DNA of 64,000 nucleotides from assembly GCA_030418545.1 (NCBI GenBank), contig QAIB01000005.1, positions 310,001 through 374,000 on the forward strand. Direction: 5' to 3'. A program made the translations under genes and the position numbers. Positions 3,226 to 17,360 of the stretch are shown here, piece after piece; within the stretch, counting starts at the first letter, position 1, and each line of letters begins with the position of its first letter. The notes beneath the pieces are model-generated. The model was not told where the DNA came from. It saw only the letters and a program-made list of their open reading frames with translations, and searched no databases. Source of the stretch: Xenophilus aerolatus (lineage in GTDB: Bacteria > Pseudomonadota > Gammaproteobacteria > Burkholderiales > Burkholderiaceae_C).

Positions 3226-3902
3226 GCTTGGCCGACCGAGCGGCCGGCCCCGCGCCACGCGTGCACGCTTTGGGCGACGCAGCGCTCCTGGTCGAACTGC
3301 CACCGCCCGCCACGCTCGCTGTCCAGCGCAAGGTCTGGGCGCTCGGCCAGGCCGCGCAGGCCTGGCCCGAGGTGGGCGAGGTGCTGCCGGGCATGAACAA
3401 CCTCACGCTGCTGTTCGACCCCGAGCGCATCGACGCCGGCGAACTGGAGCTGCGCGTGCTCACCCTCTGGCCTGAACTGGGTGAGTCCGCCGCGGGGGAG
3501 GCCCGCACGGTGCAGATCCCGGTGGCCTACGGCGGCGAGCATGGGCCCGACCTGCACGACGTGGCCCGCCACACCGGCCTGCCGGCCGACGAGGTGGTGC
3601 GCCGCCACGCCGCGGGCGACTACGTGGTGTACCTGCTGGGCTTCCTGCCCGGCTTCGCGTTCATGGGTGGCCTCGCGCCCGAACTGGCCACGCCGCGCCG
3701 CAGCGAGCCGCGCACGGCGGTGCCGGCGCGGTCCGTGGGCATCGGCGGTGCGCAGACCGGCATCTACCCGCTGGTGTCGCCCGGCGGCTGGCAGCTCATC
3801 GGCCGCACGCCGCTGGCGCTGTTCGACCCGCAGGCGGCCGATCCCACCCTGCTGCGTCCGGGCGACCGCGTGCGCTTCGTCGTGGAGAGCGTCGAGTTGT
3901 GA
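3222..3902 (+). CDS. pxpB: 5-oxoprolinase subunit PxpB (KipI/allophanate hydrolase subunit 1 family)
   Basis: 226 residues beginning at a GTG that overlaps the coaD stop. Family marks include [12 protein letters not shown] near the N-terminus and [19 protein letters not shown] in the middle (the GFxPGF loop). With PxpC and PxpA it forms the ATP-dependent 5-oxoprolinase that opens pyroglutamate to glutamate. All three genes are present here within 2.7 kb, which supports oxoprolinase over a Kip-type sporulation inhibitor or urea amidolyase role. The stop overlaps the pxpC start. Confidence 0.92.
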
Positions 3903-4933
3903 GCGGCACCCTCGTCGTTCACAGGCCGGGCATGCTCGCCTCGGTCCAGGACCTGGGCCGCGAAGGCCTGCGCCAGCTCGGCATCTGCCCCGGCGGCGCG
4001 CTCGACACGCTGGCGCTGCGCCTGGCCAACCGCCTCGTCGGCAACCCCGAGGGTGCGGCCGGCCTCGAGCTGACGATGGGCAATGCCGAATTGCGCTTCG
4101 AGTCCGACACCCGCATCGCCTACCTCGGCAGCGACTTCGACGCGCGGCTGGACGAGCAGCCGCTGCACCCCGGCTGGAGCGTGCCCGTGCGCGCCGGCCA
4201 GCGGCTGCGCTTCGGCGGCGCCAACCGCGTGGCGGCTTCGGCCGGCCTGCGCAGCTGGCTGGCGGTGGCCGGCGGCATCGACGTGACGCCCATGATGGGC
4301 TCGCGCAGTACCGACCTCAAGGCCGGCTTCGGCGGGCACGAGGGGCGTGCGCTGAAGAAGGGCGACCGGCTGCCCCTCGGCGCGTCGGGCCTGACCGAGG
4401 CGCAGCGGGCGCGTCGCGCCTTCGGCGTGCGCGGACCCGATCCGTGGCGCGACGAGGGCGCCGACGCGCCTGTGGCGCCGGCCGGCGACGACGGTGCCAC
4501 CGTGCTGCGCGTCATGGCCGGGCCCGAAGCCCATCAGTTCACCGCCGCATCGCGCGCCGCCTTCCACGCCGCCGCCTGGCGCATCACGCCGCAGAGCAAC
4601 CGCATGGGCAGCCGCCTCGAGGGCCCGGCGCTGCAGCGCGAGGCGGCGGGCGACATGCTCTCGGCCGGCGTCGTGCCCGGCACCGTGCAGGTCCCGCCTT
4701 CGGGCCAGCCCATCATCCTCATGGGCGACGCACAGACCACGGGCGGCTACCCGCGCATCGCCGTGGTGATCCGCGCCGACCTGTGGAAGCTCGCGCAGGC
4801 GCCGCTGGGCGGGCTGCTGCGCCTGATCGGGGTCGACGCCCCCGCCGCACTGGCCGCCTGGCAGGCGCAGAAGCGCTATCTCGCGTCGGTGGAGCAGGGG
4901 CTGGCGGCCATGGGGTGGCCGTCGCAGAATTGA
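3899..4933 (+). CDS. pxpC: 5-oxoprolinase subunit PxpC (biotin-dependent carboxyltransferase/KipA family)
   Basis: 344 residues, GTG start overlapping the pxpB stop by 4 nt. The opening PGMLASVQDLGREGLRQLG and the LAVAGGIDV and MGSRSTDLKAGFGG segments are diagnostic for the KipA/allophanate-hydrolase subunit 2 family. It is the partner of PxpB in the oxoprolinase complex. After it comes a 127-bp palindromic element, then pxpA, so the operon is interrupted by a hairpin-forming repeat. Confidence 0.92.
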   Translation: MSGTLVVHRPGMLASVQDLGREGLRQLGICPGGALDTLALRLANRLVGNPEGAAGLELTMGNAELRFESDTRIAYLGSDFDARLDEQPLHPGWSVPVRAGQRLRFGGANRVAASAGLRSWLAVAGGIDVTPMMGSRSTDLKAGFGGHEGRALKKGDRLPLGASGLTEAQRARRAFGVRGPDPWRDEGADAPVAPAGDDGATVLRVMAGPEAHQFTAASRAAFHAAAWRITPQSNRMGSRLEGPALQREAAGDMLSAGVVPGTVQVPPSGQPIILMGDAQTTGGYPRIAVVIRADLWKLAQAPLGGLLRLIGVDAPAALAAWQAQKRYLASVEQGLAAMGWPSQN

Positions 4934-4945
4934 TCGCCTGACAAG

Positions 4946-5072
4946 CGGACAGCCGAACGCAGAGGGCGCGAAGGATTCGCAGAGGCCGCAGAAAAAGGCC
5001 GAACTTCTTCTTTTCAGCGGTTTTCTCTGCGCGCTTTGCGCAACCTCTGCGCCCTCTGCGTTCGGCTGTCCG
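4946..5072. repeat. Family B palindromic element, copy 1
   Basis: 127 bp with perfect 24-bp terminal inverted repeats (4946-4969 and 5049-5072) beginning CGGACAGCCGAACGC. The pairing continues imperfectly inwards, so almost the whole unit can fold into one hairpin. It starts 12 bp after the pxpC stop and ends 29 bp before pxpA. It is a diverged relative of the three copies in the 24.4-26.9 kb ABC operon, using CGCAGAGG where those have CGCGAAGG. Confidence 0.9.
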
Positions 5073-5101
5073 GTCCCGTTTTTCTCACCCTGAATAACCC
5101 C

Positions 5102-5842
5102 ATGCAAATCGACCTCAACGCCGATCTCGGCGAAGGCGCCGGCAACGACGAGGCGCTGCTCGCGCTCGTGAGCTCGGCCAACATCGCCTGCGGCTGGCAC
5201 GCCGGTGACGCGAAGACCATGCGCCAGTGCGTGCGCTGGGCCATCGACAACGGCGTGGCCATCGGCGCGCACCCGAGCTTCCCCGACCGTGAGAACTTCG
5301 GCCGCAGCGCCATGCAGCTGCCGCCGGACGAAATCGTCGCCAACATGCTCTACCAGATCGGCGCACTGGCCGCGATCGTGAAGGCCGAGGGCGGCACGCT
5401 GGTCCACGTCAAGCCGCACGGCATGCTCTACAACCAGGCCGTGAAGGAGCCCGAGCTGGCCGCGGCCCTGTGCGAGGCGGTGCGCAAGTTCGACCCCTCG
5501 CTCAAGTTCTTCGGCCTGGCCGGCAGCGGCATGATCGAGGCCGCGCGCCGCGCCGGCCTGACGCCGGTGGAAGAGGTCTTCGCCGACCGCGGCTACATGC
5601 CCGACGGCAGCCTGGTGCCGCGCAGCCAGCCTGGCGCGCTGATCGAGGACGAGGAGGCCTCGCTGGCGCAGACGCTGTCGCTGGTGCGCGACCACCAGGT
5701 GACGGCGATCGACGGCAGCACGGTGGCGGTGAACGCGCAGAGCGTGTGCCTGCACGGCGACGGCGCACATGCGCTCGCCTTTGCGAAACGCATCCGCGAG
5801 CGGCTCACGGCCGAGGGCATCGCGATCACGCCGCTGGCCTGA
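5102..5842 (+). CDS. pxpA: 5-oxoprolinase subunit PxpA (LamB/YcsF family)
   Basis: 246 residues, the usual family length. The start [20 protein letters not shown] and the motifs [13 protein letters not shown] (about 28-40) and [10 protein letters not shown] (about 103-112) are strongly conserved in LamB/YcsF proteins. PxpA catalyses pyroglutamate ring opening together with PxpB and PxpC. The ATG at 5102 is chosen because residues upstream of it are encoded by the palindromic repeat and match nothing in the family. Confidence 0.94.
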
Positions 5843-5970
5843 GCGCGCCGCGCGCTGTCGGCCGCCCCGGCCGGTGCACGCCGACCCCGTCGATGTGACG
5901 GATGCCCTTGCCTCCCTGACCGGTCGCTCTTACAAGCGGGCGATCAAAAAGAAGTTCAGGGAGTTAACTC

Positions 5971-6195
5971 ATGGAACTGCGCGACATCGCAGTGACCGTA
6001 CGCGAGCTGGCGCACGGCGGGTTCGGCTGGGTGCTGTTCGAAGGCACCGGCGAGGACGGCAGCTTCGCCTCCTACGCCCGCCTGCAGGCGTCCGAACGAC
6101 CGTACGACAGTTACTGGACGGCGCTGGCCGCGGGCATCGGGGCGCTGCGTAGCCTCGGCACGCCGGAGCGGGGTCCGCGCCGACGGCTGGATTGA
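5971..6195 (+). CDS. Small hypothetical protein
   Basis: 74 residues (MELRDIAVTVRELAHGGFGW...), preceded by AGGGAG about 8 nt upstream of the ATG. No signal peptide or membrane segment; the C-terminus is Arg-rich (RGPRRRLD). It lies alone between pxpA and a convergent hydrolase gene. I do not recognise a family. A ribosome site and smooth amphipathic composition suggest it is real. Confidence 0.5.
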   Translation: MELRDIAVTVRELAHGGFGWVLFEGTGEDGSFASYARLQASERPYDSYWTALAAGIGALRSLGTPERGPRRRLD

Positions 6196-6211
6196 AATCC
6201 GGAAGAGAAAA

Positions 6212-6261
6212 GGGCTGCAGCGCCGACCGTACGGGCGCCGTTTGCTATTGATTCGATAGCA
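6212..6261 (+). repeat. Family A 50-bp repeat, copy 1
   Basis: 50-bp unit starting GGGCTGCAGCGCC and ending with the small palindrome GCTATTGATTCGATAGC. It overlaps the last codons of the minus-strand hydrolase gene. Other copies: 8666, 13131, 24629, 28688, 32919 (partial), 38895 and 58973. Confidence 0.85.
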
Positions 6262-6955
6262 GACGGCACAGCCAGTCGCCGAGAAAGGCGTTGACGGTGC
6301 CTGGCTTCTCCATCGTGAGCATGTGGCCGCAGGCCGGGACCCAGTGCAGCTCGGCCTGCGGCAGCAGCGCGGCGATCTCGCGCGAGGCGGCGGGCGGCGT
6401 CAGGCGGTCGCTGTCGCCGCACATCACCAGCACCGGGCAGCGCAGCCGGCCCAGGTGCTGGCGTGCATCGGGACGCTGCATCAGCGCGCGGTTCTGGCGG
6501 ATCAGCTGCGCCGCGCCGGCGTCCAGGATGATGTCCAGGTAGCGCTGCGTCAGCGCCCGGTCGGCCGCCTGCGCCGGATGGAAGGCGAAGACGATGTTGG
6601 GCTCGATCACGTCGCGCACGTCGCCCTGTTCGAAGAGCTCGATGGCCGAGGCACGCAGCTCGTAGGTCTCGGGCGTCTCGGGCGCGGCATTCGTGCCCAG
6701 CAGCGCCAGCCCGGCGACGCGTTCCGGCGCCTGGCGGGCTGCCTCCATGGCCACCATCCCGCCCATCGAGGCGCCGCACAGCACCAGCGGGCCGGCCGTC
6801 TCGGCGAGCACGGCGGCGGCCATGGTCTCGATGCTGGCGTGCCGCATGTGGGCGTCGCTCACGAGCGGATCGAGGGCGGGCGGGACGATCGGCAACTGGG
6901 CTTCCCAGAGGCGGGCATCGCAGGCCAGGCCGGGGAGAAAGACGAGGCGGGGCAT
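6245..6955 (-). CDS. Alpha/beta-fold hydrolase
   Basis: 236 residues. The nucleophile elbow GASMGG places Ser at residue 63. The likely acid is Asp181 or Asp183 (CGDSDRLTPP) and the catalytic His is 211 (ACGHMLTME). It resembles small esterase/MenH-like hydrolases; the substrate cannot be told. No signal peptide. Its final codons are formed by a family A repeat, so the extreme C-terminus is probably acquired sequence. It is divergent from the phosphatase gene at 7068. Confidence 0.85.
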   Translation of the reverse strand: MPRLVFLPGLACDARLWEAQLPIVPPALDPLVSDAHMRHASIETMAAAVLAETAGPLVLCGASMGGMVAMEAARQAPERVAGLALLGTNAAPETPETYELRASAIELFEQGDVRDVIEPNIVFAFHPAQAADRALTQRYLDIILDAGAAQLIRQNRALMQRPDARQHLGRLRCPVLVMCGDSDRLTPPAASREIAALLPQAELHWVPACGHMLTMEKPGTVNAFLGDWLCRLLSNQ

Positions 6956-13182: not shown

Positions 13183-14541
13183 TCAGTGCGCTTCGGCCAG
13201 CGGCGGCAGGCCCAGTCCCGCATACACCGTGCCGGCCAGCCGCCGCAGCCGCCGCGACTCGGGCTGGCCGTTGAGCTGCTGCTGCACGATGCCCTGGGCA
13301 CCGGTGAGCGCGGCCTGTGTGCCGCTTCGCACGAGCGCATCGAGGTAGACCTGCTCGAAGAGGTCGCGCTGCGCGTGGCTGCCGCCGATCTCGACCATGC
13401 GCGGCAGCGCCGTGCCCAGGCCCTCGATGGCAGCGGCGTGGTTGCCGCGCGCGTGCGCCAGCAGCCCGCGCGCCGCCGGCACGCACACGCGCTCCCAGGC
13501 ATGGCGTGTGGCCGCGGGGGCGGTGGGCGCGTAGGCCTCGATGTGGCGCAGCAGCGTGTCGGCCTCGGGCCGGCCGGCGCGCGCCAGGCCGTAGAGGTAC
13601 TGCAGGTCGAGGAAGGGCAGCACGTGGTCGGCGGTGCGGCCGGCCAGGTGCACGGCCACGTCCTGCCAGCGATCGCCGACATCGATGCCCGCGAGTTCCA
13701 GCCGCGCCAGCAGCGACACGGCGCCGATCTGGTCCTGCGAGTAGTCCTTGACCACGCCCCAGCAATGGCGGTCGTACACCGCCAGCGCCTCGTCGTCACG
13801 GCCCAGGTCGATGAGGAAGAGCGCCAGGTGCCACCAGTTGTGCGTGACCATGAAGGAGTTCAGGCCGGTCCAGGTCTCGCTCACGTCCTCCATGAAGGCC
13901 AGGCCCTCGGTGAGGCGGCCCTCGGTCAGCATGACATGCGCCAGCGCATGGTGGGCCCACGGCTCCTTGCGCTCCATCGCGATGGCACGGCGGGCGCTGG
14001 CTTCGGCCTCGCGCATCAGGTGGCACTGCTCGTAGCCGAAGGCCAGCATGCCGTGCAGGTAGGGCACGTCGGCCGCATGCGGCGCCGCCGCCAGCGCCAG
14101 CCGCAGCATGCCGGGGCAGTCGCCGAGGTTGAAGCAGTGGTACTGCCCGAGCTTGAGCGACACCAGGTCGCGCGGGAACTCGCGCGCCTGTTCCTCGTGC
14201 AGCCGGATCGCCTCCCGGATGTCGCCCGCCACCCAGGCCGCCACCGCCGCGATGTAGCGGCGTTCGCGTGGCGTCGCCTGCGCGGCCCCGGCCTGCGCGC
14301 GTTCGATGAAGGGCCGCGCATTGGCCACCGCGTCGGCCGACTCGGCAAACATCTGCAGCGTGGCGCCGTAGGCCTGCACCAGCGGGTCGGGGTCCTCGTG
14401 CGGCGTTAGGGCGAGGTTGGCAGCGCGTGCTTCGCAGGCGATGAAGCCGCCCACGAAGTCGTCGACCAGGCGATGGCTGGTGCTGTCGCTCAGGCTGAGC
14501 GGATTGCCGAGCGGGTCGGTGGCGGTGGGTGCGGAGGACAT
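13183..14541 (-). CDS. TPR protein resembling TTC38
   Basis: 452 residues, cytoplasmic, almost wholly helical. Several helix pairs match the degenerate TPRs of the TTC38-like family (PRDLVSLKLGQYHCFNLGD, EPWAHHALAHVMLTEGRL and NWWHLALFLIDLGRDDEAL). No catalytic motif is evident; a scaffold role is likely but the partner is unknown. It is divergent from the large three-domain hydrolase gene, with about 110 bp between starts, so the two could share regulation. Confidence 0.8.
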   Translation of the reverse strand: MSSAPTATDPLGNPLSLSDSTSHRLVDDFVGGFIACEARAANLALTPHEDPDPLVQAYGATLQMFAESADAVANARPFIERAQAGAAQATPRERRYIAAVAAWVAGDIREAIRLHEEQAREFPRDLVSLKLGQYHCFNLGDCPGMLRLALAAAPHAADVPYLHGMLAFGYEQCHLMREAEASARRAIAMERKEPWAHHALAHVMLTEGRLTEGLAFMEDVSETWTGLNSFMVTHNWWHLALFLIDLGRDDEALAVYDRHCWGVVKDYSQDQIGAVSLLARLELAGIDVGDRWQDVAVHLAGRTADHVLPFLDLQYLYGLARAGRPEADTLLRHIEAYAPTAPAATRHAWERVCVPAARGLLAHARGNHAAAIEGLGTALPRMVEIGGSHAQRDLFEQVYLDALVRSGTQAALTGAQGIVQQQLNGQPESRRLRRLAGTVYAGLGLPPLAEAH

Positions 14542-14654
14542 GGCCGAGATTCTGCCGGCGTGCCGGACTGTGCGTGCGCACTACCTCGGATGCGGGATGC
14601 GCAGGCCCGTGGGCGCCGCGCATCATGGCAGCAGCGAATGCACCGGAGCCTGCC

Positions 14655-17360
14655 ATGCCTCAGCTCACCGACCTTCATCTCGCTCGCATCATGCGCAACG
14701 CCTCCGGGCGCCGTCGCGCCGAGTGCCTGCAGCCCTTCAACGATGCGATGCAGGCGAACGGCATCGACACGCTGAACCGCGCCGCCGCCTTCATTGCGCA
14801 ACTGGCGCACGAATCGGGCGAACTGCGCTGGCTGGAAGAGATCTGGGGCCCGACCGCCGCGCAGAAGCGCTACGAGCCGCCGAGCGACCTGGCCCGGCGG
14901 CTGGGCAACACGCAGAAGGGCGACGGCTTTCGCTACAAGGGCCGCGGGCCGATCCAGGTCACGGGCCGCTTCAACTACAAAAAATACGGCGAGCTGCTGG
15001 GGCTGGACCTGGAAGGCGACCCGGCGCAGGCGGCGCAGCCTGCGGTCGGCTTCGCCATCGCCGGCTGCTTCTGGTCGCGCAACGGCCTCAATGCGCTGGC
15101 CGATGCGGGCGACTTCAGCGGCATCACGCGGCGCATCAACGGCGGGCAGAACGGCGCCGCCGATCGGGAGCGCTTCCACGCGCTCGCTTTGCAGGTGCTG
15201 GCGGACAGTTTCCCCGCACGTGCCGCGGCACCGGCGAAGGCCGCGCGCGCCACGCGCGCCGCAGCGGCCGGCTCGCTGCCGCGCGGCCAGGAGGCGATCG
15301 AGGCCGACGCCGCGGCCATGGCACAGGAGGACAAGCGCACCGCCGGGAAGGCGTCCGGCAAGGGCAAAGGCAAGGCGGCCGCGCCGGCGCCGGCAGAAGC
15401 CCCCGCGCGCGCTTTCGATGTGCGGCCCGACACGCTCGACTTCCGGGACCTGATGTACACGCCCACCCTGGTGGAAGTGCCCACGCACGTGCCGCTGGGC
15501 GACTACATCGACCAGGGCGTGCCCATCCTCGACCAGGGCCGCGAAGGCGCCTGCACCGGCTTCGGCCTGGCGACGGTGGCGAACTACCTGCTGCTGCGCC
15601 GGCGCGTGCTGCCGGACCGCACGCCCGTCAGCCCGCGCATGTTCTACCAGCTGGCGCGCCGCTACGACGAATGGCCGGGCGAGGACTACGAGGGATCGAG
15701 CGCGCGGGGCGCCATGAAGGGCTGGCACAAGCACGGCGTGTGCGCCGAGTCGCTGTACCCCCAGGTGCTGCCGCGCGGCCAGAAGCACGGCCTGAACGAG
15801 GCGCGCACGGCCGACGCGGTGCGGCGGCCGCTGGGCGCGTACTTCCGGGTCAACCACAAGGACCTGGTGGCCATGCATTCGGCGATCGCCGAGGTGGGCA
15901 TCCTCTATGCCAGCTGCCGCGTGCACCAGGGCTGGAGCGCAGTGGGTGCCGACGGCCTCATCGCGCAGTCCGACGCCATCCTCGGCGGCCATGCCTTCGC
16001 CATCGTCGCCTACGACGAGCGCGGCTTCTGGCTGCAGAACTCGTGGGGCCCGACGTGGGGACAGGGCGGCTTCGGCCACCTGAGCTACGACGACTGGCTG
16101 GCCAACGGCACCGACGTCTGGGTGGCGCGCCTGGGCGCGCCGGTGACGCTCACGCGGCCCGAGTCGGCGGCCACCGCGCATGCGAAGAGCTCGGCGCAGT
16201 CGAACGCCTACGCCTATGCCGAGCTGCGGCCGCACATCGTGAGCGTGGGCAACGACGGACGGCTCAAGGCCGGCGGCGACTACGGCAGCACGCCGCAGGA
16301 GATCGCGCGCGTGTTCGAGGAGGACATCCCGCGCGCCGTCGCGGCCTGGAAGGTGCCGCGCGTGCTGCTGTACGCACATGGCGGGCTGGTGAGCGAGCAA
16401 TCCGCGGTGCAGCGGCTGGCCGAGTACCGGCCGCTGCTCATCGGCGGCGAGGTGTATCCGCTGGCCTTCGTGTGGCGCACCGACTACTGGACCACGCTCA
16501 CCAACATCCTCAAGGACGCCATCTCCCGGCGTCGGCCCGAGGGTGCGCTGGACGCCACCAAGGACTTCATGCTCGATCGGCTGGACGACGCGCTCGAGCC
16601 CGTCGCGCGCGCGCTCACCGGCAAGTCGGCCTGGGACCAGATGAAGCAGAACGCGCTGGCCACCAGCGCCGCCGGCGGTGCCGCGGTGCTCGTGGCGGAC
16701 CACCTCCAGAAACTGGCAAAGAAGCTGCCGGGGCTCGAGATCCACCTGGTCGGCCACAGTGCCGGTTCCATCCTGCTCGCTCCGGTGCTGGGACTGCTGG
16801 GCGACCGCGGACTCCAGGCGAAGACCTGCACGCTGTGGGCGCCGGCCTGCACCACGGCGCTCTTCCGCGCGCACTACCTGCCCGCGCTGCAGAAGAAGGT
16901 GCTGCGCAAGCTGGCGCTCTTCCTGCTCACCGACACGGCGGAGCAGGACGACCACTGCGCGCACATCTACAACAAGTCGCTGCTGTACCTGGTGTCCAAC
17001 GCCTTCGAGGATCCGGCCCGCATCCCGCTCTTCCGCGACGGCGTGCCGATCCTGGGCATGGCGCGCTGGCTCGACGCCGAGCTGCGCAAGACCCTGGACT
17101 CTTTCGGCACCGACGTCGTGCTCGCGCCCAACAACGAGCCTGAAGCCTCGCTGTCGGCCTCGGGCGCAATGCACCACGGCGACTTCGACGACGACCGGCG
17201 CACGGTCATGGCGACCTACCGCCGCATCGTCGCCGACGGGCCGGTGGCAGCCGCGCGCCGGGGCGAGGCGGCAGCCGGCGCGCTGCCGGTCTTCAAGCGC
17301 TCCGAGTCGTCGATGCGCGACCAGCGCCAGCAGCTGGACTGGCGCACGCAGCGCGCCTAG
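14655..17360 (+). CDS. Three-domain enzyme: GH19 lysozyme/chitinase, papain-like peptidase, alpha/beta-hydrolase
   Basis: 901 residues. Domain 1 (about 1-185) is GH19: AHESGELRWLEE gives the catalytic Glu53 and the FRYKGRGPIQVTGRFNYKKY segment is the family core, as in phage endolysins. A low-complexity Ala/Lys/Gly linker (about 186-255) follows. Domain 2 (about 258-500) is C1-peptidase-like: DQGREGACTGFG gives Gln294 and Cys300, GGHAFAIVAYD gives His446 and QNSWGPTWGQGGFG gives Asn462, so the whole catalytic set is present. Domain 3 (about 565-830) has LYAHGG at 573-577 and GHSAGS with Ser702, an alpha/beta-hydrolase or lipase fold. There is no signal peptide. GGAG 6 nt upstream supports the ATG at 14655. 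An anti-bacterial effector exported by another route, or a phage-derived lytic enzyme, is inference. Confidence 0.85.
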   Translation: MPQLTDLHLARIMRNASGRRRAECLQPFNDAMQANGIDTLNRAAAFIAQLAHESGELRWLEEIWGPTAAQKRYEPPSDLARRLGNTQKGDGFRYKGRGPIQVTGRFNYKKYGELLGLDLEGDPAQAAQPAVGFAIAGCFWSRNGLNALADAGDFSGITRRINGGQNGAADRERFHALALQVLADSFPARAAAPAKAARATRAAAAGSLPRGQEAIEADAAAMAQEDKRTAGKASGKGKGKAAAPAPAEAPARAFDVRPDTLDFRDLMYTPTLVEVPTHVPLGDYIDQGVPILDQGREGACTGFGLATVANYLLLRRRVLPDRTPVSPRMFYQLARRYDEWPGEDYEGSSARGAMKGWHKHGVCAESLYPQVLPRGQKHGLNEARTADAVRRPLGAYFRVNHKDLVAMHSAIAEVGILYASCRVHQGWSAVGADGLIAQSDAILGGHAFAIVAYDERGFWLQNSWGPTWGQGGFGHLSYDDWLANGTDVWVARLGAPVTLTRPESAATAHAKSSAQSNAYAYAELRPHIVSVGNDGRLKAGGDYGSTPQEIARVFEEDIPRAVAAWKVPRVLLYAHGGLVSEQSAVQRLAEYRPLLIGGEVYPLAFVWRTDYWTTLTNILKDAISRRRPEGALDATKDFMLDRLDDALEPVARALTGKSAWDQMKQNALATSAAGGAAVLVADHLQKLAKKLPGLEIHLVGHSAGSILLAPVLGLLGDRGLQAKTCTLWAPACTTALFRAHYLPALQKKVLRKLALFLLTDTAEQDDHCAHIYNKSLLYLVSNAFEDPARIPLFRDGVPILGMARWLDAELRKTLDSFGTDVVLAPNNEPEASLSASGAMHHGDFDDDRRTVMATYRRIVADGPVAAARRGEAAAGALPVFKRSESSMRDQRQQLDWRTQRA

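Follow-up and report, generated by a model that had tools for sequence, protein, structure and literature searches.

The 64,000-nucleotide stretch of Xenophilus aerolatus DNA studied here (contig QAIB01000005.1, positions 310,001 to 374,000; hereafter the window) carries an intact open reading frame at positions 14655-17360 of the plus strand, encoding 901 amino acids followed by a stop. Its product joins, in this order, a GH19 endolysin domain, a linker, a papain-like peptidase (C1), an alpha/beta-hydrolase (ABH) and a tail. We found that this ABH family has repeatedly been combined with a wall hydrolase and a cysteine protease, from non-homologous parts. Such repeated assembly strongly indicates that the three activities act in concert, and it suggests a self-contained means of cell bursting; if they do work together, one gene would hold everything needed for programmed lysis. 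The pairing of an ABH with a protease had been predicted before; the repeated assembly of the triad and its fused papain version appear to be new. No paper describing either was found in a search that most of the subscription literature lay outside, and to that extent novelty is unproven.

Recurrent combination of the three activities

Hereafter, L numbers designate collected loci and G numbers sampled genomes; the loci of the main C1-ABH search are the best 80 of 295 stretches in GTDB species genomes. Within this set, relatives of the C1-ABH half occur in Pseudomonadota, Bacteroidota, Planctomycetota, Acidobacteriota, Verrucomicrobiota, Cyanobacteriota and other phyla, and C1-ABH is a stable unit, often a stand-alone protein. 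Among 138 distinct C1-ABH proteins (the window's included), 28 carry GH19, one carries a muramidase and 109 carry neither, a GH19 share that is biased towards the window protein because only the best loci were retained. The survey of other genomes proposed in an earlier reading of the window, made from the sequence only, thus recovered the same fusion in two clades, together with triads built from other parts. A sequencing or joining error is ruled out, since GH19 is found in front of C1-ABH in 27 other distinct proteins.

The window's clade takes in Variovorax, Cupriavidus, Halomonas and others, and the second, distant clade comprises L010, L012, L014, L016, L017 and L129, three members of which are 47-48% identical to the window protein in C1 and 33-35% in the ABH. 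On a thinned 51-row quick tree, a single clade uniting both sets of GH19 proteins was rejected (p-AU 0.00027). In the 138-row quick tree, which comes with a long-branch warning, the wall-hydrolase label needs three changes (gains or losses). A different wall hydrolase, an N-acetylmuramidase (PF11860, 2.5e-61), stands N-terminal to C1-ABH in L156.

The protease varies as well. Single chains of 913-993 amino acids with the order Amidase_2-ABH-caspase were found in L147, L148, L162, L163 and L164; L147, L148 and L162 were assigned with Pfam, and all five were aligned, the amidase, GHSAG and caspase His/Cys motifs being visible. A Kovacikia plasmid stretch matches the amidase-ABH-caspase query over 98%. 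In L125 and L145 the ABH and the caspase are adjacent genes, and the window ABH and the caspase-adjacent ABH of L125 belong to one family (BLASTP 2e-14, shared motifs). Moreover, a caspase gene lies directly 5' of the GH19-C1-ABH gene in L186, a caspase-family gene lies directly downstream of C1-ABH in L118, and in S. mexicanum and Rhizobium sp. CC1099 caspase matches were detected close to C1-ABH.

Other N-terminal additions were also observed. Nine of the 109 unfused proteins have an N-terminal extension of >100 residues in which no catalytic domain was identified. The extensions of L005, L007, L030 and L088 seem to stem from reading frames called too long and are left out of the domain counts. 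A small N-terminal part is conserved in the Chitinophagaceae loci L067, L077, L091 and L093, where a conserved gene pair lies upstream of C1-ABH, one gene with a weak Ntox23 match; a different small part is present in L103 and L106. On the Paracoccus plasmids L122 and L123, a trypsin-like domain is N-terminal to C1, beside a protein of ~2000 residues (by Pfam for L122 and by annotation for L123).

Domains and catalytic residues of the window protein

The presence of three catalytic domains in one chain, as the sequence-only reading had proposed, agrees with Pfam, PHROG, PDB and model matches. The N-terminal domain matches Pfam PF00182 (1.9e-8), the endolysins of PHROG 181 (5e-59) and the PWe2 endolysin in the PDB (1.7e-31). 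The C1 part matches PF00112 (6.7e-6) and the cysteine protease 3ois (1.7e-13). The ABH stays under the Pfam cut-offs (Lipase_3, E 0.092; DUF900, E 0.16). Coordinates are collected in Table 1.

The residues singled out by that reading (Glu53, Gln294, Cys300, His446, Asn462 and Ser702) proved to be conserved. E53 is kept, together with E62, in 26/26 covering rows (of 28 GH19 rows), and we take these two glutamates to be the catalytic pair. Q294, C300, H446, N462 and S702, as well as D766 and H841, are invariant in 107/107 alignment rows, and GHSxG is present in 135/138 C1-ABH proteins. Hence the first domain has the GH19 fold with its two glutamates, and peptidoglycan hydrolysis is predicted for it; the second is a papain-family enzyme, with the papain fold and its Gln, Cys, His and Asn; the third is modelled as a serine-hydrolase-type ABH, with the fold, a GxSxG nucleophile, an acid and a late histidine. 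The catalytic acid may be D766. A DxxDFRD stretch N-terminal to C1 is also conserved. Compared with the nearest relative, L034, whose C1-ABH part is 96% identical to the window's, dN/dS is 0.08 for GH19, 0.08 for C1, 0.10 for ABH and 0.27 for the linker; every one of the three domains is under purifying selection.

A full-length AlphaFold2 model was of moderate quality (mean pLDDT 72, pTM 0.52). Its best fold matches in the PDB are GH19 endolysins (9ms7, 4.8e-11) and papain/cathepsin B (from 1.9e-5), and linker segments 189-207 and 229-248 have pLDDT < 50. The ABH modelled by itself gave pLDDT 86 and pTM 0.86; its top PDB matches are all alpha/beta-hydrolases, all weak, the first being the DDHD domain of Nir2.

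Table 1. Features of the GH19-C1-ABH gene, in window positions
Feature	Position	Strand	Basis and remarks
GGAG, likely ribosome-binding site	14645..14648	+	read from the sequence, six bases 5' of the ATG at 14655
Whole gene, GH19-linker-C1-ABH-tail	14655..17360	+	open reading frame and domain matches; architecture shared by 27 other distinct proteins
GH19 endolysin domain, residues 1-187	14655..15215	+	E53 at 14811-14813, E62 at 14838-14840
Ala/Lys/Gly linker, residues 188-253	15216..15413	+	low model confidence, fast evolving
C1 peptidase, residues 254-500	15414..16154	+	Q294 at 15534-15536, C300 at 15552-15554, H446 at 15990-15992, N462 at 16038-16040
ABH, residues 525-868	16227..17258	+	HGGL at residues 575-578; GHSAGS with S702 at 16758-16760; D766 at 16950-16952; H841 at 17175-17177 in HGDFDDD
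33-residue tail	17259..17357	+	poorly conserved compared with L035, L036 and L039

Neighbouring genes

At least 7/105 genes adjacent to and on the same strand as unfused C1-ABH genes appear to encode wall hydrolases or wall binders: an amidase in L161 (the gene of L009) and in L116, GH108 in L175 and L176, TIGR02594 in L118, PG_binding_1 in L159, and DUF2272 with SH3 in L126, TIGR02594 and DUF2272 being presumably wall enzymes. This count is a lower bound because single-member families mostly fall outside the lists. Among the families listed (25 of 138), Amidase_2, GH108, PG_binding_1 and PG_binding_3 have two members each in the 105 neighbours, and MoxR-type and vWA signals were found three times each. 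The control was a random sample of 115 of the 435 genes that lie three to five genes away in these loci; of the families listed for it (25 of 169), none represented by at least two genes was a wall-hydrolase family. Both sets are approximate because gene models came from a simple open-reading-frame caller, and L183 and L200 have no labelled gene model. In L119, a divergent gene with CHAP and PG_binding adjoins. In the Larkinella loci L059, L063 and L080, a gene for a vWA protein of 881-901 amino acids precedes C1-ABH on the same strand at a distance of 30-80 bases (Pfam assignment for L059).

Beside the window gene itself, no phage or secretion gene was seen by eye or with Pfam, as the sequence-only reading had stated. 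That reading was also right that a tetratricopeptide repeat (TPR) gene is divergent from it (13183-14541, minus strand; weak matches to TPR models). The suggestion that this gene is a partner or immunity scaffold did not hold: a tblastn search against 205 loci matched only its own copies (L001, L003 and L033) and L034.

Proposed lysis from inside the cell and competing explanations

Our preferred, still tentative, account is that the protein is a single-chain cytosolic executor of lysis that works from within and is gated by its protease. Control would rest with the papain-like domain, the switch. Once unleashed, the protease would cut the disordered linkers and thereby free or activate the ABH, which would attack the inner membrane with lipase or phospholipase activity; GH19 would then cross the opened membrane and cut peptidoglycan, and the cell would burst. 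The likely purpose would be altruistic lysis upon infection or damage, or a controlled release of cell contents. Many phage endolysins stay cytosolic until a holin opens the membrane. In agreement with the sequence-only reading, no hydrophobic N-terminus was found in the window protein by simple hydropathy, and without a signal peptide GH19 could not reach the wall alone. The fast-evolving linker, disordered in the model, could be the target of the protease, which may instead degrade other proteins. The enzymatic activities are inferred, as are the cutting of the linker, the sequence of steps, the membrane as target, the trigger and the purpose.

If the account is true, one cytosolic protein combines a switch, a membrane breaker and a wall breaker. 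The ABH predicted alongside caspases in bacterial conflict systems, for which no substrate was found in the literature, would then have a concrete role, the attack on membrane and wall. The wider idea, which we regard as somewhat doubtful, is that gasdermin-free lytic death has been built repeatedly, papain or caspase gating a membrane-attacking ABH together with an endolysin, at the extreme in one chain. Of the two functions offered by the sequence-only reading, the self-contained lytic enzyme gains indirect support because the same three activities were reassembled from unrelated domains; the weapon is retained as a rival, discussed below.

Several observations weigh against lysis from within. 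None of the four neighbour sequences scanned around the window gene was recognised as a sensor, NTPase or adaptor, and no PADLOC-DB 2.0.0 family matches at E up to 1. No fused wall hydrolase was recognised in 109/138 C1-ABH proteins, and 98/105 adjacent genes were not identified as wall hydrolases or binders; the neighbour control covers mainly families with two or more members. The likeness of the ABH to DDHD is limited (Foldseek top match 9jyx, E 1.3e-4, with TM-scores of only 0.35 and 0.39). L118, L121 and L142 (3/138) show no GHSxG and no recognisable ABH serine nucleophile, and ABH catalysis may thus be dispensable in some members. In L146, where the ABH gene stands separately, the next gene is biotin-synthase-like and not a caspase gene. 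Finally, the own genome encodes Hcp, a point taken up with the effector below. As a separate observation, L118 and L121 are alphaproteobacterial plasmid loci.

Known systems offer partial parallels. Kaur et al. 2020 (PMC7159879) report that an ABH gene always adjoins the caspases of VMAP (MoxR-vWA) systems and that GAP1 systems have ABH and caspase effectors and, rarely, a DNA-glycosylase, and they predict lysozyme and papain-like domains linked by EAD1 to be conflict-system effectors. The statement of the sequence-only reading that it knew no described system with this set stands for the triad, of which the paper searches found no description, but not for the ABH-caspase pair or for separate lysozyme and papain-like domains tied by EAD1, both predicted in 2020. 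Term searches of a papain review (PMC10380794) and a GH19 database paper (PMC8547705) likewise turned up no mention of the fusion. As in the VMAP and GAP1 systems so described, the ABH is paired with a cysteine protease, and the family found here pairs with caspases too; here, however, the chain itself includes the protease, which is papain-like, and a wall hydrolase, and no NTPase, sensor or adaptor was recognised beside the gene. System 3 of the same source also unites a wall hydrolase and a papain-like domain in one predicted effector set, but there they are separate EAD1 proteins and the papain-like domain is read as a peptidoglycan peptidase, whereas the window protein is one chain with an ABH added and no recognised EAD1. 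LypABC of Caulobacter (PMC13236601) is a precedent for peptidase-driven host lysis: it is host-encoded, peptidase-dependent and without a holin-endolysin pair. It differs in its trypsin-like peptidases and NLR-like ATPase, and its accessible text names no wall hydrolase or ABH.

Membership of the window protein in these conflict systems is putative. That it is an effector of such an NTP-dependent system, switched on in trans by a sensor from another locus, seems to us quite unlikely. The ABH family does adjoin caspase, PLD and trypsin genes in L125; L145 contains ABH, caspase, uracil-DNA-glycosylase-like and HSP90 genes, which recalls the GAP1 list of PMC7159879 with its rare DNA-glycosylase; and Pfam finds Trypsin_2 fused to C1 in L122. 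But no effector-associated domain, MoxR, vWA, GTPase or STAND was recognised in the window protein or the four scanned neighbours, and the ABH was likened to that of Kaur et al. by description, not by sequence, so that family identity is a supposition. The two matches of the bpMoxR model in the own genome are uninformative because the model also rings in 12/14 control genomes. L125 itself is a 12-14 kb stretch of the Mesorhizobium plasmid NZ_CP062230.1, with operon-like genes for the ABH, the caspase, a 1449-amino-acid trypsin + PLD protein and a second trypsin-like product.

A role as an anti-bacterial effector is, in our view, unlikely; the protein would have to enter rival cells, by type VI secretion for instance, and attack wall, protein and lipid there. 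Hcp is encoded in the own genome (PF05638, 2.1e-32), in a contig stretch with genes that look T6SS-like by eye, and TfcB (PMC11253643), a bactericidal type IV secretion system (T4SS) effector, is reported to have GH19 at the N-terminus of a larger bacterial protein. Unlike TfcB, the window protein has two further enzymes in place of a C-terminal translocation domain. The Hcp genes, moreover, are on another contig than the window gene, neither a secretion gene nor an apparent immunity gene is adjacent, and the neighbours of relatives mostly differ between lineages. Only 33 residues follow the ABH, hence there is no large C-terminal delivery domain, nor a T4SS translocation domain of the usual size. 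Also in this genome, locus L205 (G000 contig 2, 122000-141000) holds at ~3872-6319 an 815-residue frame with a caspase match (PF00656, 4.1e-10), directly 5' of an Hcp-like domain (PF05638, 3e-5) and of genes that look TssF-like and ClpV-like by eye; this caspase is perhaps T6SS-linked.

A housekeeping or digestive role as a multi-enzyme, in wall turnover or in the consumption of dead cells, appears very improbable. All three activities suit digestion, and a prolyl-type digestion role would require no partner genes, but no signal peptide was seen and occurrence is patchy. C1-ABH was detected in 35/399 whole genomes of the order (E <= 1e-20), and the ABH profile matches 16/398 phylum genomes and 20/369 class genomes. 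The GH19 fusion is present in 6/35 positive order genomes (the own genome, G248, G268, G284, G029 and G313; G368 was not counted). Among plasmids, 26/72,556 records match, 14 of these over >=80% of the query.

With the endolysin of Myxococcus phage Mx1 the GH19 domain shares 55% identity, and it aligns with the phage endolysins of PHROG 181. The protein could accordingly be read as a phage endolysin that was domesticated and acquired two further domains, serving prophage or gene-transfer-agent release, which we consider improbable. The C1-ABH query matched 5/50,697 phage records, with alignments that cover 30-38% of it and lie within the C1 part, and a single IMG/VR locus, again over C1; with the C1-ABH half hardly present in phages, a phage origin of the whole protein is not supported. 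Nor were phage genes recognised beside the window gene. A second GH19 stretch occurs in the own genome (L002, G000 contig 1, 162282-162971); it is 38% identical and has two internal stops.
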